This document shows, piece after piece, positions 7,431-31,124 of a stretch of 37,071 bases of DNA. The notes under the pieces are model-generated. The model saw nothing but the letters and a program-made list of their open reading frames with translations, did no database searches and was not told the DNA's origin. The position numbers and the translations under genes were made by a program. The stretch comes from Thiomargarita sp. (GTDB lineage: Bacteria; Pseudomonadota; Gammaproteobacteria; Beggiatoales; Beggiatoaceae): contig DYRG01000027.1 of assembly GCA_020718845.1 (NCBI GenBank), positions 1 through 37,071 on the forward strand. Direction: 5' to 3'. The stretch's first letter is position 1, and the number at the start of each line of letters is the position of its first letter.

Positions 7431-7432
7431 AA

Positions 7433-8764
7433 TTAAGTGAGTGCAGCGAGTTGTTGAGGTAAGTTATCTAAGGTGAGGAAATGACAAGAAGATGGATAAG
7501 AAGAATCTGTTGGTGGAGAAATGCCAACAATTAAAACATGAAAAGGTAAATTGAGGCTTTCTAACCATTTCACAAAAGCCTGTCGTTGTTCATCCCAATT
7601 TAATAAAACACAAACACATCCGCTCATCGAAGAAATATGTTGTTGAACAAGAGGATATAATTCTTTAAATTTATTTGTAGAGGGTTGAACACAAGCGAGG
7701 ATTTCTAATAAAGTTGTGGCTTGTCCAACGCCATGTCCACTCGTTGTACAAAAGGCTTGTTCTCCGATGAGCATTAAATCTAATAAAGTATCTTGAGTTG
7801 TTAAGTTTCCCACTAAAGAAGCTGCTATAGAAACTGCGGTTTCAAATATTTCTAGTTGCTCTGGCTTTGCAAAGGTATCTAAAATTAAAGCATGGCGCAC
7901 AAAAAACTCGTCGGTAAATTCTTTAATAACGGGTTTGCCGCGTTTTGCCCAACTTTTCCAATGAATGTAACGCGGTGAATCGCCCGCTCGATAATCGCGC
8001 AACGAAGAAAATTCGCCCGAATCGCCGACCGACATTGCCCAATTTACGCCTCCCGCTTGATATTTCCGTGAACCCGCCAAATTTAATAAAGAAACCTCGT
8101 ATAACTTCGGTAAAATCAACACTCTAGCAGGCGCAGAAAATCGACAAATCGATCGAAATAACCCCAACGGATCAGGGCGTGCAATCATTACCCCACAAAG
8201 ATCAATGTAACCACGTCGTAATGGATTGAAAGATAAAGTTATTTCAATATTTGAATGCGAAGAAATGGGCGGTAAATCTTGCCATTCATTGGATGCGCCG
8301 CGATTTTTATGCGCCAACATCACCCATCGAGGATAACCAATATAATGATCAAATCGGTTGTGAAGACGTTTTTGGAGCGAAAGGGCGTTAAATTCTAAAA
8401 ATGTCGGTAGATGTTGTTGAAATTCATCACGAATTTGTAATCCAATTTCCAATTTATTGCTAGAATTGTGGATTTCGACCGAATAGAAAAATGGCTCGCC
8501 AACCGTCCCATAACGCGGAAGTTGCCGTGAAATTTGAAGGGAAATATTAAAGAAACGACTGCTCAAAAACGCAACCAATAATAACGCCAACGCTAACGTA
8601 AATATTTGATACGCATAGGTTCTTCGAGTATCCAATCCGAACACTGCGCCCGCCGTCATCGCCCCCATGATTAATAAACCCGCTGAAGTCAAATGTTGCC
8701 GCAACCATCCGCCCGACACATAAACCCAACGAAAATTATGAAATAAAATTCTTTTAATTATCAT
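7433..8764 (-). CDS. DUF58 domain protein
   Basis: This 443-residue protein has two N-terminal membrane spans (about residues 22-62) followed by a beta-rich region and the DUF58 core. The diagnostic stretch reads GDSGEFSSLRDYRAGDSPRY, then IHWKSWAKRGKPVIKEF, near 240-280. The C-terminal part resembles a von Willebrand A-type fold (LILDTFA strand). DUF58 proteins usually sit with a MoxR AAA+ ATPase and a transglutaminase, but neither is here. Instead the gene lies between a sugar dehydratase and a glycosyltransferase. The frame opens at a TTG (8797) inside the upstream gene. The ATG at 8764, 4 bp after the upstream stop, is the better start although its ribosome-binding site is weak. Confidence 0.9.
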   Translation of the reverse strand: MIIKRILFHNFRWVYVSGGWLRQHLTSAGLLIMGAMTAGAVFGLDTRRTYAYQIFTLALALLLVAFLSSRFFNISLQISRQLPRYGTVGEPFFYSVEIHNSSNKLEIGLQIRDEFQQHLPTFLEFNALSLQKRLHNRFDHYIGYPRWVMLAHKNRGASNEWQDLPPISSHSNIEITLSFNPLRRGYIDLCGVMIARPDPLGLFRSICRFSAPARVLILPKLYEVSLLNLAGSRKYQAGGVNWAMSVGDSGEFSSLRDYRAGDSPRYIHWKSWAKRGKPVIKEFTDEFFVRHALILDTFAKPEQLEIFETAVSIAASLVGNLTTQDTLLDLMLIGEQAFCTTSGHGVGQATTLLEILACVQPSTNKFKELYPLVQQHISSMSGCVCVLLNWDEQRQAFVKWLESLNLPFHVLIVGISPPTDSSYPSSCHFLTLDNLPQQLAALT

Positions 8765-8768
8765 AAGG

Positions 8769-10598
8769 TTACATTTCTTCACAAAATTCAGGAACAAGAG
8801 ATTTTAATAAAGGGCGAATGACTTGTTCATCATGTTGCTCTGTTGCTTCTTTTAATAAATTCAAATGTTCTATTAAATAGTTCCAATCCGCTGAACGTGA
8901 AGAAGCTAACATAATTTTGCTATGTCGAGTTCGACTCATTTGTTCTTCTTCTGCGTGAAAAAGTTCTTCATGAAGTTTCTCACCCGCTCTCAAACCCGTA
9001 TAAACGATTTGAATATCTTGATCGGGAATTTTACCTGACAAACGAATTAATTGTTCTGCTAAATAACGGATTTTAATTGGCGATCCCATATCTAAAACAA
9101 ATATTTCGCCGCCGTAACCCATTGCACCCGCTTGTAAAATTAGTTGACAGGCTTCTGGAATAGTCATGAAATAACGAGTAATTTCTGGATGCGTAACAGT
9201 AACAGGTCCTCCATTTGCAATTTGAGAACGAAACAGAGGAACTACACTGCCCGCTGAATCTAAAACATTACCAAATCTAACCGTGATAAAGCGCGTTTTT
9301 GAACGTTCATTTAATGCCTGACAAAACAATTCTGCAATGCGTTTGCTCGCTCCCATAATATTTGTCGGATTAACGGCTTTATCAGTAGAAATTAAAACAA
9401 AACTTTTAACTTGATATTGAATAGCTAATTGTGCAAAGGTTTGTGTGCCTAAAATATTATTTTTAACGGTTTCACGGATTTGATGTTGTAATAAAGGAAC
9501 GTGTTTGTAAGCGGCGGCATGAAATATAACATCAGGTTGATGAATGCTCAAAATTTGCTTTACTCGAACTGCATCGCCGACATCGCCTAAATAAATATGC
9601 AAAGGGGTTTCTGGAGAAACTTTTTGTAAAGATTGTTCGATTTGATAAAGATTAAACTCACTGCGTTCTAAAATGATTAATTTTTCGGGTTTTAAAGAAG
9701 CAATTTGTCGGCATAATTCTGCGCCAATTGATCCGCCACCGCCACTAATTAAAACGCATTTGCCTTTCAAACGGTCTTCGATAATACCTAAATCTAATTT
9801 AACCTTTTCACGACCTAATAAATCATCTAAAGAAACTTTGTGTAATTCAGAAATAGAAGTTTTAGGTGATTCGCTTAATTTGGGAAGTGTTAAAAAAGGA
9901 ACTTGAGTTTGTTCGCAATACTCGACTATACGCTGCATTTGGGCATCGCTTGCGGAAGGCATGGCGATAATTAAACGTTGAATATTTGATTTACGAACCA
10001 AAGCCGCCAAACGTTCAATTCCTCCGTGTAAAATGGGAACACCATGTATATTTGCACCATGTAATTTTGGGTTATCATCGACTAATCCAACTAATAAATA
10101 TTCACCGTCGTGCAATATATCTCGAACTAACATTTCTCCTGCGCGTCCAGCTCCAATAATTAGTGTGCGTTTTGGAGAACGAGAATCTAATACATAACGC
10201 AAAGAATGTTCTTTCCATAAACGGTATAACAAACGGGGCGTTCCTAAAAGAAATCCGAGAAATAAAGGATAAAGAATAAGTGCGGTTCGAGGAATGAAAT
10301 TCAGTCGATTAAATAAAAATAAAATAGCGGTAATTGCTAATGTACCAATAATAGAGGATTTTGCAATGTTTGTTAAATCTGGCAAGCTCGCAAATCGCCA
10401 CATACTTCGATAAAGCCCGTAATACCAAAAAACAGGTGCTTGAGCGGCTAAAATCAAAGGAATAATTTGCCACGCATTAGCATCAAGGGATTCCATTTGA
10501 AATCCCACCCGCACCATTATCGCAAGCAACCACGCAAGCATAACCATGAACGTGTCATGAACAATAACCGCAATGCGGCGAAAATCAATTGTTATCAT
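8769..10598 (-). CDS. Membrane nucleotide-sugar 4,6-dehydratase/epimerase (WbpM/CapD/FlaA1 family)
   Basis: This long-chain enzyme probably converts UDP-GlcNAc to the 4-keto-6-deoxy sugar used for surface polysaccharide. Four N-terminal spans occupy about 10-120. A first Rossmann domain carries GAGRAGEM (149-156). The catalytic SDR domain carries the NAD loop SGGGGSIGAEL (285-295), then STDKAVNPTN (404-413). As in WbpM, the usual Tyr of YxxxK is replaced by Met (M415...K419). The 609-residue length is typical. It heads a tight leftward unit with the DUF58 protein and the GT2 enzyme. Its ATG lies 2 bp beyond the end of the interrupted TerD-like frame. Related enzymes instead make UDP-QuiNAc or act as PglF, and substrate cannot be fixed from sequence. 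Confidence 0.93.
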   Translation of the reverse strand: MITIDFRRIAVIVHDTFMVMLAWLLAIMVRVGFQMESLDANAWQIIPLILAAQAPVFWYYGLYRSMWRFASLPDLTNIAKSSIIGTLAITAILFLFNRLNFIPRTALILYPLFLGFLLGTPRLLYRLWKEHSLRYVLDSRSPKRTLIIGAGRAGEMLVRDILHDGEYLLVGLVDDNPKLHGANIHGVPILHGGIERLAALVRKSNIQRLIIAMPSASDAQMQRIVEYCEQTQVPFLTLPKLSESPKTSISELHKVSLDDLLGREKVKLDLGIIEDRLKGKCVLISGGGGSIGAELCRQIASLKPEKLIILERSEFNLYQIEQSLQKVSPETPLHIYLGDVGDAVRVKQILSIHQPDVIFHAAAYKHVPLLQHQIRETVKNNILGTQTFAQLAIQYQVKSFVLISTDKAVNPTNIMGASKRIAELFCQALNERSKTRFITVRFGNVLDSAGSVVPLFRSQIANGGPVTVTHPEITRYFMTIPEACQLILQAGAMGYGGEIFVLDMGSPIKIRYLAEQLIRLSGKIPDQDIQIVYTGLRAGEKLHEELFHAEEEQMSRTRHSKIMLASSRSADWNYLIEHLNLLKEATEQHDEQVIRPLLKSLVPEFCEEM

Positions 10599-17669: not shown

Positions 17670-19412
17670 GTGAATCCGCCTATGTACCGTGAAGAAGAGA
17701 TTTCTCATCTCCTGTCCCGACTCAAACAATTGAATTCTATCGGAATTGCGCTGTCATCCGAGAAAAATAGTGACCGCTTGCTCGAGTGTATTTTAGACGC
17801 TGCGCGCATTTTAACCAATGCTGACGGCGGTACGTTGTACATTAAAACCGACGCGGGTCTGAAATTTGAAATCATGATTTCAGAAAGTTTGAAAATTCGC
17901 AAGGGCGGCAGCAGTGGCGAACCCATTACTTTTCCTCCGCTTCCTCTATACGATAGCACTGGCAAACCTAATATGCACATGGTAGCGGTGTGCGCGGCGT
18001 TGAGCGAAAAAACTATCAATATTCCAGATGCTTACGAAGATACGCAATTTGAATTTTCAGGCACTCGACGCTTTGATGAGAAAATGAATTATCGTTCAAA
18101 ATCATTTCTCACCGTTCCAATGAAAAATCATAAGAACGACATTATTGGCGTATTACAACTCATTAATGCCCGAGAGCAAAAAAATAATGAGATAATTGCT
18201 TTTAATGAATGGGATCAAGAGTTAGTTGAATCTTTGACCTCACAAGCGGCGATTTCCATTATGAATCAACGCTTTATTAAAGAACAAAAAGAACTTTTTG
18301 AAGCCTTTATTAAACTCATTGCCAACGCCATCGACGCGAAATCTCCTCATACCAGCAAACATTGCAGCCGTGTTCCTAAAATCACTTTAATGTTAGCAAA
18401 TGCTGCCGCGAGAACAAAGCACGGTTCTCAAGAAATCCGCAATTTCCAAATGAATGAAGAACTTGCTTATGAATTATGGATCGCGGCAATGTTGCATGAT
18501 TGCGGCAAAATTACAACGAAAGAATATGTCGTTGATAAAGGTAAAAAGTTAGAAACTATCATCGACCGAATTCATTTGATCGACACGCGATTTGAAGTTT
18601 TAAAACGTGATGCAGAAATTGCCCATTTGAAACAACAAGTCGAAATGCTTAAAAAAGGTGAACAACTAAACTTTGAAAAACTTGATCAACAATTTAAAGA
18701 ACACATAAACACTTTAAACGAAGAAAGAGATTTCATTCGATATTGCAACGTCGGCACTGAAGCGATGGATGAAATTGATCAAGAACGTGTCAAACAAATT
18801 GCGCAACGAAAATGGATTTCTCCAAACGGTGAAGAAATGAATTTGTTGCTCGACGATCAAACCGTTGAAACCTTATTTTATCCATTAATTAAAAACGAAG
18901 TTCGCAAACCTAATGATTTGAGAAAATCAAACGGTGAAATTGAAAACCTTTGCATTAAAAAAGGCACATTGCGCGATAGTGAACGCAAACATATCAACGA
19001 TCATATTGTCACTTCAATTAAGATGTTGAAATCATTACCTTATCCACAACACTTAAAAAACGTTCCAGAATTTGCGGGCGGGCATCACGAACGAATGGAC
19101 GGCAAAGGTTATCCATATGGTTTAAAACGAGAAGATATGTCTTTGCCTGCGCGAGTGATGGGGATTGCAGACATCTTTGAAGCCTTGACTTCTTCAGAAC
19201 GTCCTTACAAGAAAGCAATGCCGCTTTCTCAAGCCTTAACAATTTTAGGAAAAATGAAAGAGGAAAATCATATTGATCCCGATTTGTTTGATGTGTTCAT
19301 TCACGAGAAAGTTTATTTAGAATACGCTGAAAAATACCTCAGCGAAGAACAAAGAGATCAAGTTAATATTTTGACTCTTCCTGGTTACAATCCACATTTC
19401 TTTTCGGAATAA
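17670..19412 (+). CDS. GAF and HD-GYP domain phosphodiesterase
   Basis: This probable cyclic-di-GMP phosphodiesterase has 580 residues. A GAF sensor covers about 25-200. The metal-dependent HD domain starts at about 205, with HD at 276-277 (MLHDCGKITTKEYVVDKGKK). The diagnostic HHERMDGKGYP is at 472-482, followed by GIADIFEALTSSERPYKKAM. Between the HD and GYP segments lies an insertion of about 120 charged, probably helical residues (315-435) not found in the core fold. No membrane span or receiver domain is visible, so the GAF domain is presumably the signal input. The start is ambiguous: GTG 17670 or ATG 17682, neither with a clear ribosome-binding site. It ends 2 bp before the epimerase gene, but is probably independent in function. 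Confidence 0.9.
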   Translation: MNPPMYREEEISHLLSRLKQLNSIGIALSSEKNSDRLLECILDAARILTNADGGTLYIKTDAGLKFEIMISESLKIRKGGSSGEPITFPPLPLYDSTGKPNMHMVAVCAALSEKTINIPDAYEDTQFEFSGTRRFDEKMNYRSKSFLTVPMKNHKNDIIGVLQLINAREQKNNEIIAFNEWDQELVESLTSQAAISIMNQRFIKEQKELFEAFIKLIANAIDAKSPHTSKHCSRVPKITLMLANAAARTKHGSQEIRNFQMNEELAYELWIAAMLHDCGKITTKEYVVDKGKKLETIIDRIHLIDTRFEVLKRDAEIAHLKQQVEMLKKGEQLNFEKLDQQFKEHINTLNEERDFIRYCNVGTEAMDEIDQERVKQIAQRKWISPNGEEMNLLLDDQTVETLFYPLIKNEVRKPNDLRKSNGEIENLCIKKGTLRDSERKHINDHIVTSIKMLKSLPYPQHLKNVPEFAGGHHERMDGKGYPYGLKREDMSLPARVMGIADIFEALTSSERPYKKAMPLSQALTILGKMKEENHIDPDLFDVFIHEKVYLEYAEKYLSEEQRDQVNILTLPGYNPHFFSE

Positions 19413-19414
19413 AA

Positions 19415-20359
19415 ATGACTAAACAAATCTTAGTGACGGGTGGCGCAGGTTTTATTGGTTCGCATTTAGTTGAAAAACTATTAGAACTCGGTTTTTTTGT
19501 AAAGATTTTAGATAATTTTTCAACGGGGAAATTAGAGAATCTTGCGCATTTGGATCAAAGCAAAATTCAAATCATCAAAGGCGATGTTTCTCATTTCGAA
19601 GAAATATTTGAAGCAGCTCAAAATGTCGAAGCCATTTATCATGAAGCCGCGCTGGTTTCTGTGCCGTTATCGATTCAAAATCCTCAATTGAGTTTTCAAA
19701 TAAATAGTTTGGGTTCTTTTAATGTATTTGAAACCGCACGTCGTTTAAATATTTCAAAAGTAATTTATGCAAGTTCGGCGGCAGTGTATGGAACAAATCA
19801 AAACCTTCCTTTAAAAGAAACCGAACTTTGCGAACCTTTAAGTCCTTATGCGTTAGAAAAACATTATACAGAACAACTTGCGCATTTGTATTTTCATTTG
19901 TACGGCATTTCATCGGTGGGTTTGCGTTATTTCAATGTGTATGGAGAACGCCAAGACCCAACTTCACCTTATTCTGGCGTTATTTCAATATTTGTAGATA
20001 AATTATTAAAGAATCAACAAATAACTATTTTTGGCGATGGTGAACAAACCCGTGATTTTATTTATGTGAAAGATGTGATTTCTGCAAATATTTTAGCATT
20101 AGAATATTCAGAGAAAAACGCGCAAATTTTCAATGTTGGAACACAAACAAGTATAACTATAAATAAATTATTATTTGTATTGCAAACCCAACTCAAAACG
20201 TCGATAATACCTACTTATCAACCCAACCGATCTGGCGATATTAAAGATTCCTGTGCGAATAATTCAAAACTTAAAGAAACTTTACATTGGAATCCGCAAT
20301 TTTCTATTGAGGAAGGTTTCGCATATTATTTAACTTGGCAGAAACAACAATTAGGTTAG
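19415..20359 (+). CDS. NAD-dependent nucleotide-sugar epimerase
   Basis: This 314-residue extended SDR enzyme is of the UDP-glucose/UDP-GlcNAc 4-epimerase (GalE/WbpP-like) type. The NAD loop is GGAGFIG (9-15), followed by Asp33 for the adenosine ribose (ILDNFSTG). The catalytic set is S121 in YASSAAVYG and Y145-x3-K149 (SPYALEKH). RYFNVYGERQDP near 172-183 and GEQTRDFIYVKDV near 208-220 are standard substrate-side motifs. It lacks the TDEVYG motif of RmlB, so it is not the dTDP-glucose 4,6-dehydratase. It is first in the eight-gene glycan locus. Possible products are UDP-Gal or UDP-GalNAc, which sequence alone cannot settle. Confidence 0.9.
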   Translation: MTKQILVTGGAGFIGSHLVEKLLELGFFVKILDNFSTGKLENLAHLDQSKIQIIKGDVSHFEEIFEAAQNVEAIYHEAALVSVPLSIQNPQLSFQINSLGSFNVFETARRLNISKVIYASSAAVYGTNQNLPLKETELCEPLSPYALEKHYTEQLAHLYFHLYGISSVGLRYFNVYGERQDPTSPYSGVISIFVDKLLKNQQITIFGDGEQTRDFIYVKDVISANILALEYSEKNAQIFNVGTQTSITINKLLFVLQTQLKTSIIPTYQPNRSGDIKDSCANNSKLKETLHWNPQFSIEEGFAYYLTWQKQQLG

Positions 20360-20363
20360 AACA

Positions 20364-21461
20364 ATGTTACAAATAAACAATTTATTGGCAAGAACCACTC
20401 GGTATCAAACCCAAATTCAAACGGCGGTTGATCGGGTGATTAGAAGTGGTTGGTTTGTGTTAGGACCTGAAGTGAAACGTTTTGAGCAATCTTTTGCAAC
20501 TTTTCTCGGTGCAAATCATTGCATTAGTGTAGCAAATGGTACAGATGCCATTGAACTCGCTTTGAAAGCATTAGGTGTGCAAAAAGGTGACAAAGTTGCA
20601 ACCGTTGCAAATGCTGGAATGTACACAACAACAGCGGTTTTAGCGATTGGTGCAACGCCTTATTTCATGGACGTTGATTTAGAAACCCAAGTTGTAACAT
20701 TAGAAGAGGTTACAAAAGCAATTAATTCAGGTGTAAAAGCCGTCGTGGTAACGCATTTGTACGGGTTAGCAATTCCTCAAATTTCTGAAATTGCCAACAT
20801 TTGTACAAAAAGAAATATTTCCTTACTCGAAGATTGTGCGCAAGCCCATTTGGCTAAAATAAAGGGGAAATACGTTGGAACATTTGGAAATGCAGGAACT
20901 TTTAGTTTCTATCCGACTAAAAATCTTGGTGCATTAGGTGATGGTGGCGCAATTATTTCTAATGATCCCGCGATTACAAAAAAAGTAGAATTATTACGTC
21001 AATACGGTTGGACAGCAAAATATCAAGTTGAAATCCCCAATGCTAAAAATAGTCGATTAGATGAAATACAAGCTGCTGTTTTATCTGAATTTTTACCATT
21101 TCTTGAACAAGATAATGATCGCCGTCGACAAATCGCAACTCACTATAGTTCTTTAATTAATCACCCAAATGTTATTACCCCACCAGTTAAAGAAAAAGAT
21201 TATATTGCGCATTTGTATGTGATTAGAAGTGCTCAACGAAATCAATTGAGAGAACATTTGCGTCAATTAGATATTTCTTCTGATATTCATTACCCTATTC
21301 CAGATTATCAACAACCTGTATTTGGAAAACAATTTGCTCAGATTCATCTTCAAATAACTGAGCAACTTGCAAATGAAATTTTAACGTTACCTTGTTATCC
21401 AGAAATGTCTGATCAACAAGTTGAACAAGTTATTTCAGCAGTTAATAGTTGGTGTGTATGA
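20364..21461 (+). CDS. DegT/DnrJ/EryC1/StrS-family sugar aminotransferase (FdtB/QdtB-like)
   Basis: This 365-residue PLP enzyme transaminates a keto-sugar nucleotide. It has NGTDAIELALKALG (58-71) for phosphate binding, LLEDCAQAHLA (154-164) with the Asp that contacts the pyridine nitrogen, and the Schiff-base lysine K186 in FSFYPTKNLGALGDGGA (180-196). Because the same locus encodes a 3,4-ketoisomerase/acetyltransferase fusion, a C3-aminotransferase acting on a dTDP-3-keto-6-deoxyhexose (FdtB/QdtB role) is the best guess. It starts 4 bp after the epimerase and its stop overlaps the next start as ATGA. Confidence 0.9.
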   Translation: MLQINNLLARTTRYQTQIQTAVDRVIRSGWFVLGPEVKRFEQSFATFLGANHCISVANGTDAIELALKALGVQKGDKVATVANAGMYTTTAVLAIGATPYFMDVDLETQVVTLEEVTKAINSGVKAVVVTHLYGLAIPQISEIANICTKRNISLLEDCAQAHLAKIKGKYVGTFGNAGTFSFYPTKNLGALGDGGAIISNDPAITKKVELLRQYGWTAKYQVEIPNAKNSRLDEIQAAVLSEFLPFLEQDNDRRRQIATHYSSLINHPNVITPPVKEKDYIAHLYVIRSAQRNQLREHLRQLDISSDIHYPIPDYQQPVFGKQFAQIHLQITEQLANEILTLPCYPEMSDQQVEQVISAVNSWCV

Positions 21462-22390
21462 AATACTCGGTAATTATTCCCGTTTATAAAAACGAAGCAT
21501 CGATTTCTCGTTTATTGCAAACGCTTGAGGAAATTAATGCAAATTTAGAGAACCAACTTGAAGCAGTTTTTGTAGTTGATGGAAGCCCCGATCAAAGTTA
21601 TGCGCTGTTAAAAAAAGGGATTTCTGAGTTAAGTTTTCCAGCACAATTATTAGCCCATTCGCGTAATTTTGGTTCATTTCCAGCGATTAGAAGTGGGTTA
21701 ATGGCAGCGAGAGGAGATTTCTTTGGTGTGATGGCGGCTGATCTTCAAGAACCGCCTGAATTATTGGTAGAATTTTTCAAAGCACTTGCTGCTGATGAAT
21801 GCGATGTCGCTATTGGAACACGCATTGGAAGAAATGATCCCTTTTTCTCTCGTTTTACTTCTGGATTATTTTGGGGAATTTATCGCCGTTTAGTTATGCC
21901 AGAAATGCCTGAAGGTGGAGTTGATGTCTTTGGTTGTAATCATCTTTTTAGAGAGCAATTGCTCAAATTAGAAGAATCCCGTTCTTCATTAATTGCTTTA
22001 ATTTTTTGGTTAGGTTTTCGACGTAAAATTGTTGGATATGAACGCCAACTCCGTCAAGAAGGAAAATCCGCGTGGACATTTCGTAAGAAACTAGATTACA
22101 TGATGGATAGCATTTTTGCTTTCACGGATTATCCCATTCGTTTGTTAATGCGTATAGGAAGTATTGGTTCAGTGTTGTTAATTTTGTTAGGAATAGTTGT
22201 TTTATTTGCTAAATTATCTGGCACAATTGACGTACCTGGTTATGCTGCAACAATGTTAGTTATTTTATTTCTAGGCGCACTCAATTTGTTTGGACTTGGA
22301 TTAGTAGGAACATACGCTTGGCGGGCGTATGAAAACACCAAACAACGTCCTCTCGCCGTTGTTGCTATTAAGGTATCAAATGACAAATAA
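21458..22390 (+). CDS. GtrB-like polyprenyl-phosphate glycosyltransferase
   Basis: This GT2 enzyme of the DPM1/GtrB/ArnC group has 310 residues from the ATG at 21458. The N-terminal GT-A domain begins YSVIIPVYKNEASI, has AVFVVDGSPDQSY near 37-49 and AADLQEPPELL near 92-102, the DxD-like site. Two C-terminal spans lie at about 230-252 and 264-290. Such enzymes move a sugar from a nucleotide to undecaprenyl phosphate on the cytoplasmic face, producing the donor for periplasmic transferases. The frame opens earlier at a TTG (21449), but the ATGA overlap with the aminotransferase stop points to 21458. The gtrA-like gene three genes downstream is its expected flippase partner. Confidence 0.9.
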   Translation: MKYSVIIPVYKNEASISRLLQTLEEINANLENQLEAVFVVDGSPDQSYALLKKGISELSFPAQLLAHSRNFGSFPAIRSGLMAARGDFFGVMAADLQEPPELLVEFFKALAADECDVAIGTRIGRNDPFFSRFTSGLFWGIYRRLVMPEMPEGGVDVFGCNHLFREQLLKLEESRSSLIALIFWLGFRRKIVGYERQLRQEGKSAWTFRKKLDYMMDSIFAFTDYPIRLLMRIGSIGSVLLILLGIVVLFAKLSGTIDVPGYAATMLVILFLGALNLFGLGLVGTYAWRAYENTKQRPLAVVAIKVSNDK

Positions 22391-23711
22391 AACATCACTA
22401 CTAAAATTGCCCAATATTTCCCGCTCAGCATTTAATATTGGGGTTGTACTATTGTTTTCATTAGGATTTGTTTTTTTTATCCAACAAATATTAGAATCTC
22501 CTCGTTTTGACGCGCTTAAATATTTAGAATTAGCACAACAAGTAAATTCTAATGGTATTGCCTCTATAAAAGAACCTATTAGAACTTTTGCTTATATTTG
22601 GATATTGTCTTTAGTATCAAAAATAAGTTATTTTCTTAATCTACCAATAAACTTGCTAATATTTTTAACGCAACTTTTTACTTATTATTTAGCTATTATA
22701 GTAGTTTCAAATGTAGTAAATTCACATAGTAGAATATTATCAAGTACAATATACGTTTTACTTTGTGCAAATATTTTTGTTATTCCTTATTCAGGTATAA
22801 CACTTACAGATTTATTTTATACTTCAATTTGTCTCTTTTTATTTGGAGGAATGATGTGGATAGAATTTTTGCAAAAATCTGAGCAATTTATTTCTACAAA
22901 ATGGATATTTTGGGGTGTTTTATTATTAAGTTTAGCTATTACAATACGTCCCGCAGCAGTTTGGCTTCTTATTCCCATTTCTTTTTGTTTAGTCAGATTA
23001 TTATGGAATAAAAGTATTAATATTTTTGATGTTTTACTAGCGATTCTTTTAGGTGCAATTCCTCTTTATATTCAAATCGTACTAAATGTGATTAACTATA
23101 AAGTAATTAGCTTTTTACCTGTAACTGATTTAGGTTCTTTTCAAATAAAATGGGGTATAGAAAATATTAAATATGCAACTTGGTTAGGTGGAGGAAATCC
23201 TCAAAATTTCTATCCTTCAGCAGCATTAATAAACATTCCCACCCAAGATTTTACTTTATGGTGGTATTTTAATAATCTTATTGATGCGGTAAAATTGCTT
23301 ATTGTTAAATTAATTGGAGCATTTGATTTTGACTATTTAATGCCTTACCCTTACTATCGTTCTAATCAATGGTTTTTATCGTTTTTTTCATTTACAATTT
23401 TTTGGCTTGGTTTATGTGGAATTGTTATACATTTATTCACTAATAAATTAAAATTACTTGGCTCTCGATATATGCCTTTAATCATTTTCATAGGATGGTG
23501 TTCTGTTTCTTTAATTTCTGCGTTAGAATTACGATTTACATTACCACTTATTAGTTATTTTATTATTGTTGCTAGTGTAGTAATGTATTTTGCGATTGTG
23601 GAAAGAAACAAAACAGTTTTATTATTTATAGGTGCGGGTTGGATTATCTGTATGCCCATTTTTTATCAAATATCACATTTCATTAGATTACAAAGTACCA
23701 TTCAGGGATAA
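22380..23711 (+). CDS. Polytopic membrane protein, probable GT-C-type glycosyltransferase
   Basis: This 443-residue protein has roughly ten hydrophobic spans and no recognisable soluble domain. A short luminal loop after the first span reads [15 protein letters not shown] (40-54), the position where GT-C enzymes (ArnT/PMT-like) keep an acidic catalytic residue, so D44 is a candidate. Location next to GtrB- and GtrA-like genes supports a role in moving a polyprenyl-linked sugar to a periplasmic acceptor. That is inference, and a Wzy-like or transport role cannot be excluded. The ATG at 22380 overlaps the previous stop by 11 bp and has AAGG upstream; the longer frame from 22329 lies inside the GtrB-like gene. 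The gene is markedly AT-rich. Confidence 0.75.
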
Positions 23712-23722
23712 AGGAACTAAGT

Positions 23723-24646
23723 ATGTTACATCAAACAGCAGACATTCAATCTTCTCAGATTGGAAAAGGAACAAAAGTATGGCAATTCGTCGTTGTATTG
23801 CCTAATGCAAAGATAGGAAATGATGTGAATATTTGCTCACATTGTTTTATAGAAAATGATGTAGTAATTGGTGATCGAGTAACGATTAAAAGCGGTGTTC
23901 AAATTTGGGATGGAATTAGCATTGAAGACGATGTGTTTATTGGACCGAATGTTTCTTTTACCAATGATCGTTTTCCCAGAAGTAAAATTTACCCAGAAAA
24001 TTTTGCTCGCACGACTATTCAAAAAGGTGCATCAATTGGAGCAAATGCAACGATTTTACCTAATCTAACTATAGGAACAAATGCAATGATTGGGGCTGGA
24101 TCAGTCGTGACGCGATCCGTTCCTCCAAATGCAATTGTGGTTGGTAATCCAGCTAAAATTATTGGTTATGTCGATACAAAGAACAATATAACAACTCATC
24201 ATGAAAAATCTTATCCTCAAACGATAGGAAAAATGGAAACAACTGTTACGGGTGTAACATTTCATACCTTTCGTTCAGTGCCTGATATGCGCGGAGAATT
24301 ATCGGTAGGTGAATTTGAGAAAGAAATCCCATTTAAACCATTACGCTATTTTCTTGTATTTAATGTTCCAACCACTGAAACCAGAGGAGAGCACGCGCAT
24401 AGAAAATGTCATCAGTTTTTAATTGCGGTTAAAGGGACAGTTCATGTGGTTGCAGATGATGGTAAAAACAGAGAAGAATTTGTGTTAGAACGTAATAATC
24501 AAGGCTTATATCTTCCTCCAATGACTTGGGGTATTCAATATCATTATTCATCAGATGCAGTTCTTTTAGTTTTTGCTTCTGAATACTACGATGGAAGTGA
24601 TTACATTCGTGATTATTCTGAATTTATGAAACTTATTTCAAAATGA
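23723..24646 (+). CDS. Fused sugar N-acetyltransferase and dTDP-4-keto-6-deoxyhexose 3,4-ketoisomerase (FdtD-like)
   Basis: This 307-residue two-domain enzyme is a fusion. Residues 1-150 form a left-handed beta-helix of hexapeptide repeats ([57 protein letters not shown]), as in WbbJ/FdtC acetyltransferases. Residues 175-307 form a cupin of the FdtA/QdtA/WxcM family ([31 protein letters not shown] with catalytic His near 224-226, [20 protein letters not shown]). The fusion would both shift the keto group from C4 to C3 and acetylate the 3-amino group formed by the aminotransferase. A comparable bifunctional enzyme is known from Shewanella (FdtD). The likely product is dTDP-Fuc3NAc or dTDP-Qui3NAc. 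RmlA/RmlB would have to be encoded elsewhere. Its stop overlaps the gtrA-like start (ATGA). Confidence 0.9.
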
Positions 24647-25038
24647 TTAATAATCTTAAAATAAAACAATGGATAAGATTTCTGGTAGGTGGTGGAATAA
24701 ATACTGCTTTTACATATGGAATCTATCTCATTTTAATGTTGTTTATACATTATCAAATTGCTTATTTAATCGCTTATATTGTAGGCGTTGTTTTTGCGTA
24801 TTGGTTTAATGCTGTTATTGTTTTCAAAGTTTCTTTATCATGGAAAGGTTTATTTTCTTATCCGATTATATACATTATTCAATATACAATCTCAGCATTT
24901 TTATTAAATATATTTGTAGAAACTTTACAAATAGATAAAACTTTTGCACCTTTAATGATTATTATCATAATGATCCCATTGACTTATGTACTAAATAAGT
25001 ACGTTTTACTGATTTCTTCACCCACTAACAAAAGATAG
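24643..25038 (+). CDS. GtrA-family flippase-like protein
   Basis: This 131-residue protein has four closely packed spans. The family opening [20 protein letters not shown] (11-30) is followed by [12 protein letters not shown] near 56-67 and a final [11 protein letters not shown]. GtrA proteins are thought to flip undecaprenyl-phosphate-sugar across the inner membrane in serotype-converting gtrABC sets. Start and stop overlap the previous gene as ATGA, and the next gene begins 5 bp later, so it is made together with both neighbours. Confidence 0.9.
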
Positions 25039-25043
25039 AATTT

Positions 25044-26867
25044 ATGCAAAACAAATGGCAAGAAAAATTGAGTTGGATATTTATTGCTTTTCCTCTTGTA
25101 GGATTAGCAATTAGTGCGTTATCGTGGCTTCGTTTTGGAATTGATTTACCTTATTTAGATGATTGGAGAGTCTATTTAGAAGGAAGAATGGGGTCTCTAG
25201 CTTTAAAATATCTTTTTATAAGTGCTAATGATACTCTGTATCCTATTGGTAAAATGCTTGATTCTCTTGCATATCGCTTCCTCAATGGAAATTCTATTGC
25301 ATACCAATTCATTTCAATGATAGGAATTTTAGGATCATTGTTATTTTTGCAGTGGAAATTACTGTCGTTAGTTTTAAAAGAAAAGCTATTAATTGCATCA
25401 GCCTTTAGTCTTACGTTATTTATTATTCAACCAAGTACTTATTGGGGACTTCAAGATATAGCTTATCACCAAGCTATTCCTCTTGTCATGGTTCTTTCGT
25501 CAATATATCTAATATTGAAAGGAACTTGGCGTAATTGGTATATTCCAATAGTTGTAATGTTGGGTTTTATTTCAGGGCTTTCTTATATTAGTGGCGCGTT
25601 TGGTGTTTTAGCATTGAGTATTATTTTAATCATATTTAGCTTTTTTATAGAAACATCAGAACGAAAACCTGTTTTAATGGGTGGAATATCGCTGTTAATT
25701 CCTGCAATTATTACGACATTTGCTCAAGCATGGGTGATTGCAGTTGTTCAAAAAGGAACTCATCGACCTGATGCGCCTTTAGCGTTGCCGATTGAAAGCG
25801 ATTTCTGGTTTTTTATGTTAGGAAAAATTGCCCGTTCTTTAATGCTACCTTTTAATCAACCAGTGTTATCTTTTATCGTAACTTGCTTTATTTTGGCATT
25901 GGTTTTAGTGTTAATATTTATCATATTAAAGAATACAATTAAAGATAAGAAACAATCTTTAGAATCTATTTCACCAACACTTATTTTTATCAGTATTTTT
26001 GGAATAATATTTGTGTATTTAATACTAATTTCTGCAGGTAGAACAAATTTGCGTCCAGAAGAGGTTACTTCACCTATCCAAATATTTTCATTTGGTTTTC
26101 ATCGGTTTCATTTTTTTTGGGTAACAATTTTGTGGTCTTGGGTAATTGCAATATTGTTTATTGTATTAAAAAAATATTCAAATAATTTACAATACAAAAT
26201 TGCTTTAATAATTCCTGTGCTAGTTATTCCATTTTTGCTTTATTTAGGTGTATTTGATCATGCTAAGTATTTCCAATATGAATCCAAAATTAGAATTGAT
26301 GGCACTACTTGTTTGATTAAAGAATTGCAAAGAGGGACAGATATTAATTGCCCACAACTTTACCCAGCTTCTTTGAAAGCAGCCTTTTTTAAAGCAAAAG
26401 AAACGGGTGCTTCTTTTACCCGCATAATTCCAACTCTTGTTCCTTATATACCATTGATTTTTCGAATGTCAGAAGATTTAAATGGTAAAACAATTGAATT
26501 AAAAAATGTTGTGGTCAGTTCGCATAAAGATGGCATTGTAACATTGCAATCAGAAGATACTGATCCAATGATTATTTTTAATACTGGAAACGCGAAGAAA
26601 ATGGCTGAATGCAAAACCTTAGAAATGGAGGTTTCTATGAAGGTATCTGAATCTTCACTTGCTCAACTTTTCTTTATGTCGCCTAATCAAACTGATTATC
26701 AAGAAAGTGCAGCGGCGACGCAAATGGTTCATGCGGATGGACATTTCAAAAATATTATTTTTACTGTTCACAGTCCAAATGGATTTGTTGATAAACTAAG
26801 GTTTGATCCCGTAACCATGCCGCAGCAATTTGATATTAAAGAACTTGAGGTTCGATGTCGGATGTAA
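25044..26867 (+). CDS. Polytopic membrane protein with C-terminal beta-rich domain, probable GT-C-type glycosyltransferase
   Basis: This 607-residue protein has about ten spans up to residue 405 and then about 200 periplasmic residues. The loop after the first span reads GIDLPYLDDWRVYLEGRMG (32-50); the acidic pair D39/D40 fits the GT-C catalytic position. In the tail, SSLAQLFFMSPNQTDYQESA and later LRFDPVTMPQQFDIKELEV resemble the beta-sandwich attached to some surface-glycan membrane proteins, probably for carbohydrate contact. I infer a second periplasmic transferase, parallel to the specificity gene (gtrC position) of gtrABC sets. No named family is certain. It starts 5 bp after the gtrA-like gene. 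Confidence 0.75.
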   Translation: MQNKWQEKLSWIFIAFPLVGLAISALSWLRFGIDLPYLDDWRVYLEGRMGSLALKYLFISANDTLYPIGKMLDSLAYRFLNGNSIAYQFISMIGILGSLLFLQWKLLSLVLKEKLLIASAFSLTLFIIQPSTYWGLQDIAYHQAIPLVMVLSSIYLILKGTWRNWYIPIVVMLGFISGLSYISGAFGVLALSIILIIFSFFIETSERKPVLMGGISLLIPAIITTFAQAWVIAVVQKGTHRPDAPLALPIESDFWFFMLGKIARSLMLPFNQPVLSFIVTCFILALVLVLIFIILKNTIKDKKQSLESISPTLIFISIFGIIFVYLILISAGRTNLRPEEVTSPIQIFSFGFHRFHFFWVTILWSWVIAILFIVLKKYSNNLQYKIALIIPVLVIPFLLYLGVFDHAKYFQYESKIRIDGTTCLIKELQRGTDINCPQLYPASLKAAFFKAKETGASFTRIIPTLVPYIPLIFRMSEDLNGKTIELKNVVVSSHKDGIVTLQSEDTDPMIIFNTGNAKKMAECKTLEMEVSMKVSESSLAQLFFMSPNQTDYQESAAATQMVHADGHFKNIIFTVHSPNGFVDKLRFDPVTMPQQFDIKELEVRCRM

Positions 26868-26869
26868 AT

Positions 26870-27853
26870 ATGAACAAAAACTTATTAATTTTTATTTTCT
26901 TTACAGGGCTTGCACAAGCAGAAGAAAATAAAAACAGTTGTATTGAAATACCTGAGAGTAATTTGTGGTTTGATCAAACGCAAGCGTACATTTCTGAAAG
27001 TGTTTGTAGTTCAGCGATATGGTTTGATCATTTCTTTGCAAATGAACGCGATGAATCTGAAAACGTTAATCGTTATATTCGTTTAACAACGACGGCGGGT
27101 TATCGTAAGGTTGAAGGATTTGATTCAAATGTAAGATTGAGTGGACGAATTGAGTTTCCTAATGTTAAGAAAAAATTGCATTTGCTATTAGAAAGTGAAC
27201 AAGATAAAGATGCAATGGATGTATTAAGTCAAGGAAATCAAGTAACCCATCTATTGAATAAAAATAATACTAATAAATCAAATTCTGTAGGTTTGCGTTG
27301 GGATGTTTCTCAACAGGCTAATTCTGCGTTTTCAATGAATGTAGGATTGCGTTTCAATAAAACGATTAATTTGCGTTTGCAAGGTCGTTATCGTTACACT
27401 TATCCTTTAGAGGAAGATTCATTAATACGTTTAACGCAAAGTGTGTTTTGGGAAGGGAATGAAGGCGTGGGAGAAAATACCCGCGTTGATGTAGAGAAAC
27501 TTTTAGCTTCACAAACCCTTTTACGTTTTAGCCAAAATTTAGGCGTTTCTGAAGTCAGCAAAGGCAAAGAATGGCTTTCTGAAGTGGCATTATTTCATCA
27601 TTTCACGAAAGAAAAAGCGGGCGCATTGACATTTTGGTTAAGTGGAGCAACTAAACCTACAGATAACATTAGTGGCTTAGAAGAAACGGGGTTTAGCCTG
27701 CGTTATCGACAAAGTTTCTATCGCCCTTGGTTGTTCTTTGAAATTGAACCGCATTATCGATGGGTAAGAAAAAAATTTACTCGTGATTATCAACCTTCAC
27801 CCGGGATTATTGCTCGTGTAGAAATCCAATTTGGTTACAAACACGATCAATAA
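26870..27853 (+). CDS. Probable outer-membrane beta-barrel protein
   Basis: The 327-residue precursor starts with a clear signal peptide (MNKNLLIFIFFTGLAQA, then EENKN). The mature part alternates polar and hydrophobic residues in strands ending in turns. Many strands have the pattern seen in barrels, such as NLRLQGRYRYTY, SLRYRQSFY, LFFEIEPHYRW and ARVEIQFGY close to the end. There are two Cys (in NSCIEIPE and ESVCSSAIWF) near the N-terminus. An in-frame ATG at 26855 exists with GAGG upstream. The ATG at 26870, 2 bp after the previous stop, gives the better signal peptide. It closes the glycan locus and may export, anchor or receive the glycan; its exact role is unknown. Confidence 0.75.
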   Translation: MNKNLLIFIFFTGLAQAEENKNSCIEIPESNLWFDQTQAYISESVCSSAIWFDHFFANERDESENVNRYIRLTTTAGYRKVEGFDSNVRLSGRIEFPNVKKKLHLLLESEQDKDAMDVLSQGNQVTHLLNKNNTNKSNSVGLRWDVSQQANSAFSMNVGLRFNKTINLRLQGRYRYTYPLEEDSLIRLTQSVFWEGNEGVGENTRVDVEKLLASQTLLRFSQNLGVSEVSKGKEWLSEVALFHHFTKEKAGALTFWLSGATKPTDNISGLEETGFSLRYRQSFYRPWLFFEIEPHYRWVRKKFTRDYQPSPGIIARVEIQFGYKHDQ

Positions 27854-27908: not shown

Positions 27909-30900
27909 ATGACTATCGAACCTTTTTATCAAATTTGTAATAACTATTGCAAACAAGTTCTTTCAATCCATTCTCAAATTAATGCAACGCCAGAATTATC
28001 CTATCGCACGGATTTAGATAATTTATTAAGAAAGGCAGCAGAATTAAACGGCATGGGAACAATTCCTTTATTAGAAGGAAAAAAACTTCTTATAGAACGC
28101 CCACATCCAGAAACGGGAAAGTCTGAGCAAATATCGGTAGGAAGACCCGATTTTATCTTTACAAATCAACAAAGTAGCGCACCATTAGGTTATTTAGAAG
28201 CAGAAGGCTTTGGAGTTAATTTAAACAAATTAACGGGTCATGCAAAACACCAAAATGATATTTTTAAAGATTGTTTGGATAATTTTATTATAACGAATCA
28301 TATTGAGTTTCAACTGTATGTAAATCGCGTAAAACAAGACAGTGTAAATTTGTTTGATTTTCCACAAGAAACCGCTGTTAAACCAGAAAAAGCAACTGCG
28401 TTATTTAAGTTATTTGAAAATTTCTTTAAACGACAATCTTATGATGCTTTTACAACTCAAATTCATTCGCCGCATGATTTAGCAGAATTATTAGCCCGCC
28501 GCACTCGCCAAATGCGCAATGAATTATTAAATAGTTTGCTCTCCAAAAATCCTCAATTATCTGATTTGTATAATTCATTTAAAACCGCGTTATTACCCGA
28601 TTTGAAACCAGAAGAATTTGCAGATATTTATGCGCAAACTATTACATATGGATTATTTACTGCGCGTTCTGCATTAGCGGGAGGACAAAAATTTACTCGC
28701 CATAGTGCAACTGCGCTTATTTCAGAAAGCAATCCATTTCTATTTGCACTCTTTGAGCATATTGCTGGCGATAAACTAGACCCCAATTTAATGTGGATTG
28801 CAGATGACATTGCAAACTTGTTATGTGGCGATTACATGGAAACGGTTTTAATGGCATTTGGAAAGCGCAAACATCAAGAAGATATAGTTGTTCATTTTTA
28901 TGAAACCTTTTTAGCGAAATACGATAAAGAAAAACGTAAAGCAAGAGGTGTTTATTATACGCCAGAATCGGTGGTTTCTTATATTGTCAAATCGGTTGAT
29001 CAAGTATTAAAGCAACATTTCGATAAAAAATTGGGTTTAGCCGATAAAGAAACTTTGATTTTAGACCCTGCCACTGGAACAGGAAGTTTTTTATTTAATG
29101 TGATTAATCATATCTATGATACCGTTAAAGAAAATCCCAAAGAATTAGGTAAATGGCAGCATTATGTTGAAAATACTCAATTATTACAACGTTTGTTTGG
29201 ATTTGAAATATTGCTTGCGCCGTATGTTGTTGCGCATTTGAAATTAACTATGTTATTGAATGAAAAAGGATTTTTAGCATCAACGTCTAAACAACAACGA
29301 TTTGAAATTTATTTAACCAATGCGTTAGAAGAACCTACGAATAAGAAATCTTCTTTGATTCCAAATTTCATTTCTCAAGAAGCCGATCAAGCCGCCGATA
29401 TTAAAAATGAAAAACCGATTTTAGTGATCTTAGGAAATCCGCCTTATTCTAATTATGGAATGATGAACAAAAACAAATGGATTTTAGATTTATTAGATAC
29501 TTACAAAATTCGAGATAAAGTGAAATTATCAAGTGAAGAAAAGAAGTTAAATTTGAATGATGATTTTATTAAATTTATTCGGTTTGGACAATGGCGAATT
29601 GATAAAACAGGTTCAGGGATTTTAGCGTTTATTTGTAATAATACCTTTATTGATGGTTTAACGCATCGTTTTATGCGTCAATCTTTATTAGAAAGTTTTG
29701 ATGAAATTTATATTTTAGATTTGCACGGAAGTAGTAAGAAAAAAGAAACTTGTCCCGATGGTTCAAAAGATGAAAATGTCTTTGATATTCAACAAGGTGT
29801 GTGCATTGTTATTTTTATTAAAAAACCGCCTTCTCTTTTTGAAGAACAATCTCAAGCAACGGTATTTCATGCAGAAATGTTTGGATTGAGAGAAACAAAA
29901 TATCAACAACTCGATGCAAATGATATTTCAACGACTCATTGGACAACCTTGAAACCACTCGCCCCCGATTTCTTTTTTGTTCCCAAAACAATTATTGCAG
30001 AAAATGATCCTTATCAGCATTTCTGGGGATTAAAAGATGTTTTTACAATTTCTGGTTCTGGTGTGAAAACAGATAGAGATGATTTGTTTTTTGATACAAA
30101 TAAGGAAGTATTGAAAGAAAGGATTCAAACTTTACTTAATAATGAAGAATTAACAGCTCAATTTATTAGCACTTATCGTATAGAAAATTCGTCAAGTTAT
30201 CCATTACTTTCAAGGATAAGAAACTCTCAATTTAATGAGCAAAATATCCATCATTGTCTTTATCGCCCTTTTGATGAAAAATGGTTATATTATTCAAATG
30301 GTTTGACCAGTCGCCCTGCATTTGATGTTATGCGATACATGATTAATAACAAAAATTTAGGTTTAATAACTGTTCGTCAAGTTGCAGAGAATAATTTTAC
30401 ACATATTTTTATTTCTGATTGTTTAGCAGATTTTAGAATGACTTTAAGTAATAGAGGAGGCTGTTATTTATTTCCCCTTTATCTTTATCAAACGGATAAT
30501 TTAAAGGGAGAAACGTTAAAGATACCGAACTTCAAAAAAGAGTTTTTAGAAGGGTTTGCGAAGGCGTTGAACTTAAAGCAAGTTGAACCGTTTAATTTAC
30601 CCGAAAATATAAGTGCAGAAATGATTTTACACTATATGTATGCGGTATTTCACGCGCCCAGCTATCGTGAAAAATATGCGGAACGTTTGAAAACCGATTT
30701 TCCCCGTTTGCCATTACCTCAAAATAGCCAACAATTTCAATCACTTATTAAGATTAGTGAACAATTAATTGGATTGCATTTATTAAACAATATTGCGATT
30801 GAAGATGAACAACAACGTCCCTTATTTCCATTTGCGAAAACGATTCCAGAATTGGTTGAAAATATGACCATTCAAAAACCCGATTACATTGAGAATCAAC

Positions 30901-31124
30901 AACGAATTTATGTGAATAAAACGCATTATTTTGGAAAGGTTGAAAAAGGTTTGTGGGAATTTAGAATTGGAGGTTATCAAGTGTGTGAAAAATGGTTAAA
31001 AGATCGCAAAGATCGTATTTTAACCGCAGAGGAAATTACTCATTATCAACGTATTTTAGTCGCATTATCCAAAACCCAGCAACTCATGAAAGAAATAGAT
31101 ACCTATCTGGATAGAAATCCATAA
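27909..31124 (+). CDS. Type ISP/IIG-like restriction-modification protein (nuclease-like, N6-adenine methylase, specificity)
   Basis: One 1071-residue chain combines several parts. Residues 25-150 are a PD-(D/E)xK-like region (GRPDFIF 78-84, GYLEAEGFG 94-102). A helical connector leads to the methylase: GVYYTPESVVSYIV (347-360), the SAM loop DPATGTGSF (386-394) and the catalytic NPPY (510-513) of gamma-type N6-adenine methylases. The C-terminal third has YRPFDEKWLYY, a Type ISP-like specificity domain. There is no DEAD/DEAH helicase, so it is shorter than true type ISP enzymes. The residue expected to be the catalytic Lys after E97-x is Glu99, so cleavage may be lost. It starts 55 bp after the outer-membrane protein and stands alone. 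Confidence 0.9.
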   Translation: MTIEPFYQICNNYCKQVLSIHSQINATPELSYRTDLDNLLRKAAELNGMGTIPLLEGKKLLIERPHPETGKSEQISVGRPDFIFTNQQSSAPLGYLEAEGFGVNLNKLTGHAKHQNDIFKDCLDNFIITNHIEFQLYVNRVKQDSVNLFDFPQETAVKPEKATALFKLFENFFKRQSYDAFTTQIHSPHDLAELLARRTRQMRNELLNSLLSKNPQLSDLYNSFKTALLPDLKPEEFADIYAQTITYGLFTARSALAGGQKFTRHSATALISESNPFLFALFEHIAGDKLDPNLMWIADDIANLLCGDYMETVLMAFGKRKHQEDIVVHFYETFLAKYDKEKRKARGVYYTPESVVSYIVKSVDQVLKQHFDKKLGLADKETLILDPATGTGSFLFNVINHIYDTVKENPKELGKWQHYVENTQLLQRLFGFEILLAPYVVAHLKLTMLLNEKGFLASTSKQQRFEIYLTNALEEPTNKKSSLIPNFISQEADQAADIKNEKPILVILGNPPYSNYGMMNKNKWILDLLDTYKIRDKVKLSSEEKKLNLNDDFIKFIRFGQWRIDKTGSGILAFICNNTFIDGLTHRFMRQSLLESFDEIYILDLHGSSKKKETCPDGSKDENVFDIQQGVCIVIFIKKPPSLFEEQSQATVFHAEMFGLRETKYQQLDANDISTTHWTTLKPLAPDFFFVPKTIIAENDPYQHFWGLKDVFTISGSGVKTDRDDLFFDTNKEVLKERIQTLLNNEELTAQFISTYRIENSSSYPLLSRIRNSQFNEQNIHHCLYRPFDEKWLYYSNGLTSRPAFDVMRYMINNKNLGLITVRQVAENNFTHIFISDCLADFRMTLSNRGGCYLFPLYLYQTDNLKGETLKIPNFKKEFLEGFAKALNLKQVEPFNLPENISAEMILHYMYAVFHAPSYREKYAERLKTDFPRLPLPQNSQQFQSLIKISEQLIGLHLLNNIAIEDEQQRPLFPFAKTIPELVENMTIQKPDYIENQQRIYVNKTHYFGKVEKGLWEFRIGGYQVCEKWLKDRKDRILTAEEITHYQRILVALSKTQQLMKEIDTYLDRNP

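Follow-up and report, generated by a model that had tools for sequence, protein, structure and literature searches.

Three-component glycosylation systems such as gtrABC of Shigella and Salmonella, and gtrA/B/II of Pseudomonas donghuensis (PMC8509367), combine a GtrB-like loader and a GtrA-like flippase with a polytopic transferase that is not conserved. Predicted proteins of the same three kinds are encoded by a gene cluster in Thiomargarita sp. that we describe here, located on contig DYRG01000027.1 of assembly GCA_020718845.1, of which positions 1 to 37,071 (37,071 nucleotides, referred to below as the window) were analysed. The cluster probably represents a three-component (Gtr-type) periplasmic glycosylation cassette with its own branch for synthesis of a 3-acetamido-3,6-dideoxyhexose. 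It differs from gtrABC in its built-in amino-sugar genes, in a GtrB of a clade of its own marked by the motif (V/I)DGSPD, and in the presence of two polytopic genes; as in gtrABC, the polytopic gene of one sister cassette (L090) belongs to the GtrII family. GtrC is described as variable, and GtrA and GtrB as conserved (PMC3688519), so that a variable polytopic gene is what would be expected from known Gtr systems.

A system in which donor synthesis genes of its own accompany a flippase and a GT-C enzyme has already been published for Citrobacter youngae O1/O2 (PMC11127046), where the GT136 enzyme carries an extra beta-rich periplasmic C-terminal domain, described as a carbohydrate-binding module, and where auxiliary enzymes diversify the sugar. 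The window is predicted to resemble this system in these respects; the Citrobacter system differs in using a pentofuranose derived from phosphoribosyl pyrophosphate, a MATE flippase and another loader. The four-gene Pgf operon of Streptococcus mutans likewise has a GT2 protein, an epimerase and two polytopic proteins, and as described in PMC5856776 holds neither GtrA nor amino-sugar genes. Two papers report both gene types within one genome or survey, the fdt genes for the O-antigen cluster and the gtr genes for side branches of glucose (PMC4869667, PMC7198725); among the open-licence PMC papers listed in the searches, none was seen to describe fdt genes within a gtr cassette.

The locus consists of eight open reading frames (g1 to g8, Table 1), all on the plus strand and with tight junctions, as the initial annotation of the window had described. 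ATGA overlaps join g2 to g3 (21458-21461) and g5 to g6 (24643-24646), g3 and g4 overlap by 11 nt given a g4 start at 22380, and the g7-g8 junction is either a 2-bp gap or a 13-nt overlap depending on the start chosen for g8, for which 26870 is possible. Gene identities were taken from Pfam and NCBIfam scans with the cut-offs of the families and from a sequence search of the PDB, and membrane spans, of which g8 has none, from a hydropathy count. No Pfam or NCBIfam family exceeded its cut-off in g4, g7 or g8. Scans of the locus for promoters and terminators gave results below shuffle expectation.

The amino-sugar branch is represented by g2 and g5. The g5 protein matches PDB 4mzu over its whole length (residues 1-303 to 1-300, E=1.8e-128) and carries in one chain a hexapeptide acetyltransferase followed by an FdtA cupin domain, the domain order of a bifunctional FdtD. 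We take 4mzu to be FdtD of Shewanella denitrificans, and its pathway to be the Fdt pathway leading to deoxythymidine diphosphate (dTDP)-linked 3-acetamido-3,6-dideoxygalactose (Fuc3NAc); the window has the same ketoisomerase/acetyltransferase fusion and the same type of aminotransferase. The ketoisomerase of 4mzu presumably inverts C4, and on that condition the product would be dTDP-Fuc3NAc. The best PDB row for g2 was deposited as a glutamine--scyllo-inositol transaminase (4.6e-87), and K186 in SFYPTKNLGALGDGG is its likely pyridoxal phosphate lysine. RmlB and RmlA, required for a dTDP-3-amino-sugar pathway, are available genome-wide, on contigs C18 (501.5 bits, cut-off 365.1) and C101 (506.4 bits, cut-off 360.65), respectively. 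Neither is encoded within the window, and the locus is thus not self-contained, contrary to what had been supposed.

Loading and flipping functions are predicted for g3 and g6. The g3 protein has a GT2 domain over the Pfam cut-off (7.7e-22), matches GtrB of Synechocystis (sll0501, PDB 5ekp) at residues 3-302 (5.7e-42), and joins a GT-A domain to two C-terminal membrane spans in the manner of loaders of the GtrB/DPMS type. By family, g6 is a putative small flippase (71.2 bits for PF04138, cut-off 26.1) with a predicted role in turning the lipid-linked sugar, and it is the sole GtrA-family match in its own genome.

Table 1. Genes of the Thiomargarita locus, with positions in the window.
Gene	Predicted product	Position	Strand	Basis
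g1	GalE-like nucleoside diphosphate (NDP)-sugar 4-epimerase (short-chain dehydrogenase/reductase)	19415-20359	+	motifs, PDB 4zrm
g2	DegT/DnrJ/EryC1 aminotransferase, FdtB/QdtB-like	20364-21461	+	Pfam PF01041 1.4e-97; QdtB 3frk 7.5e-80
g3	GtrB-like polyprenyl-phosphate glycosyltransferase, GT2 plus two C-terminal spans	21458-22390	+	Pfam, PDB 5ekp, spans
g4	polytopic orphan, candidate GT-C transferase	22380-23711	+	10 spans
g5	FdtD-like fused N-acetyltransferase / sugar 3,4-ketoisomerase	23723-24646	+	Pfam Hexapep and FdtA 1.7e-52; PDB 4mzu
g6	small membrane protein of the GtrA family, putative flippase of the lipid-linked sugar	24643-25038	+	PF04138 1.1e-19; 4 spans
g7	polytopic protein with soluble C-terminal part, candidate GT-C transferase, small unnamed family	25044-26867	+	11 spans
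g8	putative outer-membrane barrel protein, judged outside the system	26855-27853 (start perhaps 26870)	+	conservation

The composition of the unit was deduced from its conservation. A GtrB profile seeded with the window copy and two plasmid copies previously met beside FdtD was run, with a limit of E 1e-60, on 398 genomes sampled across the phylum. It matched 13 genomes, nine of them (the own genome included) at 428 bits or more and four at 217-234 bits, and the neighbourhoods of all 12 other genomes were compared over 12-16.5 kb each. The eight high-scoring cassettes other than that of the window (L085-L092) span five genera. In all eight, GtrB has the aminotransferase and fused FdtD as direct neighbours or at a distance of one gene, and a polytopic gene adjoins; a GtrA was matched by g6 itself in seven, and a profile made of the GtrA sequences of the window and four of these loci agreed. 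In L092, about 1.5 kb and a polytopic frame separate the aminotransferase gene from the GtrA gene upstream of it. As to the remaining genes, g7 recurs in a single one of the eight (L086, 38% identity, full length), g4 and g8 recur in none, and g1 finds only matches of 25-26% identity in three (L089, L090, L092). A search of 72,556 plasmid records at the same limit gave two copies of the GtrB clade. The gene order is aminotransferase, GtrB, FdtD, GtrA and a 708-aa protein with 7 spans on a Phyllobacterium plasmid, and GtrB, FdtD, aminotransferase, a 743-aa protein with 11 spans and, as a further gene, an annotated EamA-family transporter on an Azospirillum plasmid (L061). Over the whole tally, FdtD and the aminotransferase accompany GtrB in 11/11 loci (three being the profile seeds), GtrA in 9/11 and a polytopic gene in 11/11. 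Genes g3, g5 and g2 are thus in constant company; g6 joins them in most loci and a polytopic gene is close by in every one, and the genuine unit is g2, g3, g5 and g6 plus a polytopic protein. The coupling of a Gtr-type system to 3-acetamido-3,6-dideoxyhexose synthesis that the initial annotation had suggested is supported by this gene company in all eight further genomes and on both plasmids. The Azospirillum plasmid (L061:6903-14467) encodes a further polytopic protein, of 611 aa and 9 spans, near GtrB on the other strand, so that two polytopic genes are perhaps not unique to the window.

In a tree of 15 GtrB sequences, the 11 clade members fall on one side of a single branch with support 100/99, apart from four outgroups whose long branches drew a warning from the program; the join between clade and outgroups is therefore not to be over-read. 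The nearest kin of g3 is the GtrB of L085 (70% identity), followed by that of L086. A tree of FdtD did not separate the cassette copies from two non-cassette copies. The motif (V/I)DGSPD is found in all 11 clade members and in none of the four outgroups, which have DDGS in its place; GGVDxFxCN is common to the 11, and D156 of GtrB is invariant across the 15 aligned rows. One may guess that (V/I)DGSPD is possibly linked to dTDP rather than uridine diphosphate (UDP) donors. Of the more distant GtrB loci, L095 and L096 gave no match to FdtA. RmlB and RmlA are also present in the distant loci L093:2106-8307 and L095:4040-8589; in L093 both exceed their cut-offs, which brings this locus nearer to a self-contained one than the window. 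A phage origin of the GtrB clade was considered and is not supported: phage matches to GtrB are distant (29-30% identity in the ten matches listed of 71 records, all 71 below 60%), no phage sequence matched FdtD at E 1e-30 or g7 at 0.01, and g4 and g7 have no relatives in viral_contigs.

From the sequences we infer enzyme activities, sugar stereochemistry, GT-C folds and the acceptor, and combine them in the following scheme. RmlA and RmlB, encoded outside the window, would supply dTDP-4-keto-6-deoxyglucose, the keto group of which would be shifted to C3 by the FdtA half of g5; g2 would then aminate C3, and the hexapeptide half of g5 would N-acetylate the product to a dTDP-3-acetamido-3,6-dideoxyhexose, probably dTDP-Fuc3NAc. 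The amino sugar would be loaded onto undecaprenyl phosphate by g3, flipped outward by g6, and handed to a periplasmic acceptor by a GT-C-type enzyme, namely g7 and probably also g4. The acceptor is most likely a surface polysaccharide, a view favoured because the Gtr-type systems described in PMC8035078, PMC11127046 and PMC3688519 act on polymers.

The acidic residues that the initial annotation had pointed out after the first span of both polytopic proteins, as in GT-C enzymes, hold up in g7, where D34, D39 and D40 are invariant in 4/4 homologs; in g4 they are present in a single sequence. The last predicted span of g7 (381-408) is followed by about 200 soluble residues, which a low-confidence model suggests to be beta-rich; the last 130-140 residues are missing in the homolog of a Polaromonas metagenome-assembled genome (L018, 48% identity) and present in the other three. 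Besides L018 and the cassette copy in L086, g7 has a homolog on a Methylovirgula plasmid (L028), and the homologs in L086 and L028 have no Pfam match. No g7 homolog was found in 94 related genomes (E 0.001) or in 368 other genomes of the class, and a four-row g7 profile matched only the window and the genome of L086 among the 398 phylum genomes (E 1e-6). The g7 homolog at L018:9950-11395 stands beside a gene that reads as L,D-transpeptidase-like, and no other cassette gene was matched in this 21-kb locus. The g4 protein is an orphan, without a match in the 94 related genomes (E 0.001) or in the plasmids; the 398 genomes gave only its own copy and a 25% identical fragment with stops (E=3.3e-4). 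Neither g4 nor g7 had a match in a PDB sequence search at E 10.

Ten polytopic proteins, of which seven belong to cassettes, two to outgroup loci and one to L028, were scanned against Pfam (L088 and L089 were not included). Families over cut-off were GtrII in L090 (6.7e-32) and PMT_2 in L087 and L091; a separate scan of the L092 protein gave no Pfam family. For g4, the Alg9-like family PF03901 stays below its cut-off (16.0 bits against 23.8, E=0.0071), a score that resembles the 21.3 bits of the GtrII protein of L090 and may be taken as a weak hint. In local alignments with 60 window shuffles per row, g4 reached z values of 2.7 and 1.9 with GtrII rows, against 0.2 or less with all seven controls; values with other polytopic proteins were 2.2 (L061, 611 aa), 1.8 (L094), 1.4 (L061, 743 aa), 1.1 (g7 of the window) and 0.2 (L062). 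A 446-aa protein of L085 gave z 1.5 and is collinear with g4 over nearly the full length; no homolog of it was found among plasmids or in 50 further genomes akin to that of L085. The likeness of g4 to GtrII is again a weak hint, suggestive and not significant.

A number of observations weigh against the cassette as proposed. Three of the 11 clade GtrBs had themselves seeded the profile, L091 and L061 lack a GtrA match, and the polytopic genes of L087, L088 and L091 are encoded on the opposite strand. Not all g7 homologs belong to cassettes: the one in L018 stands alone, and the one in L028 has an ABC transporter and a glycosyltransferase in its vicinity. With respect to the GT-C assignment, g4 and g7 fail the gathering scores of the known GT-C Pfam families, g7 without any match to them, and seven of the ten scanned polytopic proteins have no family over cut-off, five without a match and two with off-target sub-threshold ones (COX2, DsbB). 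When g4 and g7 were aligned by hhalign with the polytopic proteins of the cassettes and with seven controls, no probability exceeded 1.4%, and the controls were not beaten; the z values of g4 with PMT_2 rows (0.1 or less) and with the other g7 homologs and L093 (negative) are likewise control-like. AlphaFold models of g4, from one sequence, and of g7, from two, had predicted local distance difference test (pLDDT) values of 46.1 and 36.6, respectively, and since both models were unusable, the GT-C fold of the two proteins is put forward as a prediction. There is no role in the scheme for g1; the 3-amino branch does not need an epimerase. Finally, FdtD and the aminotransferase occur without GtrB in L059 and L060, and with FdtD unfused, as two genes, in L063.

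The GtrB-free loci would fit an arrangement of two pathways side by side, with g3, g6 and g7 loading a common sugar, for example one provided by g1, and with g2 and g5 feeding cytoplasmic O-antigen assembly. The annotation of L060 includes an O-antigen translocase and an EpsG protein; there, as in the O-antigen papers, the Fdt pathway leads to O-antigen. The characterised GtrB uses UDP-glucose (PMC4728340). However, in the window the pathway is tied to GtrB, and usually to GtrA: this GtrB clade was never seen without FdtD and the aminotransferase in the eight loci beyond the three seeds. Two of the four distant GtrBs (L093, L094) are also accompanied by unfused FdtA, GtrA and an aminotransferase, with RmlA and RmlB in addition in L093, and no other cassette contains a g1 counterpart of more than 26% identity. 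We consider two separate pathways quite improbable.

The g1 protein contains SSAAVYG and YALEK, taken here for epimerase motifs, and the top PDB match of g1 is the UDP-glucose 4-epimerase 4zrm (6.9e-69). Its presence recalls protein O-glycosylation of the Pgf kind, with g3 corresponding to PgfS, g1 to PgfE, g4 and g7 to PgfM1 and PgfM2, and a surface protein as acceptor. A gene content of a GT2, an epimerase and a pair of membrane proteins indeed matches pgfS-M1-E-M2 (PMC5856776), and PgfS is the best NCBIfam match of g3; yet the score of 161.1 bits is far under the curated cut-off of 500, g1 and g4 do not share the conservation of the cassette, and the partners that are conserved are sugar-synthesis genes and, usually, GtrA. 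With its soluble C-terminal part, g7 moreover is laid out like GT136, an enzyme that acts on a polymer (PMC11127046). The polytopic genes of sister cassettes, GtrII in one and PMT_2 in two, cut both ways, PMT_2 being named after protein mannosylation. Protein glycosylation of this kind thus appears rather unlikely, and g1 to be close to the cassette by spacing and no conserved part of it.

A dedicated system of all eight genes with the putative barrel protein g8 as acceptor or exporter, as put forward in the initial annotation, is suggested by the position of g8 on the same strand directly behind g7. Homologs of g8 occur in 13/94 related genomes (14/95 with its own) in varied contexts, but a tblastn search of g1-g7 against the DNA around all 13 (9-15 kb for nine, short default loci for the other four) gave no match, and g8 is therefore regarded as an independent gene. 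Its absence from the eight other cassettes points the same way, and the role of the barrel as acceptor or exporter was rejected on conservation. The eight genes as one conserved unit did not survive the comparison of related genomes either, considering the counts for g1, g4, g7 and g8 given above; an eight-gene system is highly improbable. The g8 family (L005-L017) is an uncharacterised one of probable outer-membrane proteins, without a Pfam family over cut-off, and by reading of the open reading frames a member adjoins ftsK in two genomes.

Upstream of the locus and on the same strand, a gene for a protein with GAF and HD domains, HD-GYP-like by reading (17670-19412), ends 2 bp before g1, so that the same-strand run begins before 19415; it may be co-transcribed with g1, and its protein had no match in the other cassette loci. 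Downstream, a Type ISP-like restriction-modification enzyme (N6_Mtase and Type_ISP_C; 27909-31124) starts 55 bp after g8. Further glycan genes lie about 9 kb upstream on the minus strand (6513-10598), encoding a GT2 protein, a DUF58 protein and a 609-aa Polysacc_synt_2 protein (CapD/PglF-like).

Returning to the Gtr-type cassette, it is tempting to go further and to regard its GtrB clade as marking a previously undescribed, horizontally spread three-component class with an undecaprenyl phosphate-linked 3-acetamido-3,6-dideoxyhexose as donor, in which g7 would be the first member of a new GT-C family whose C-terminal domain binds polymers, and in which the window would be a case of two transferases using one donor for two sites or acceptors; we advance this wider reading tentatively. 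The type of g7 occurs singly in L086, and that of g4 perhaps in L085. If the cassette acts as proposed, a deoxy amino sugar would join glucose, galactose and pentofuranoses among the sugars of Gtr-type periplasmic decoration, and g7 would add at least one candidate transferase family so far unclassified. The GtrB clade, so far always found with FdtD, would then provide a sequence signature from which the added sugar could be predicted from the genome, and the sugar specificity of GtrB, GtrA and GT-C proteins would become directly testable.

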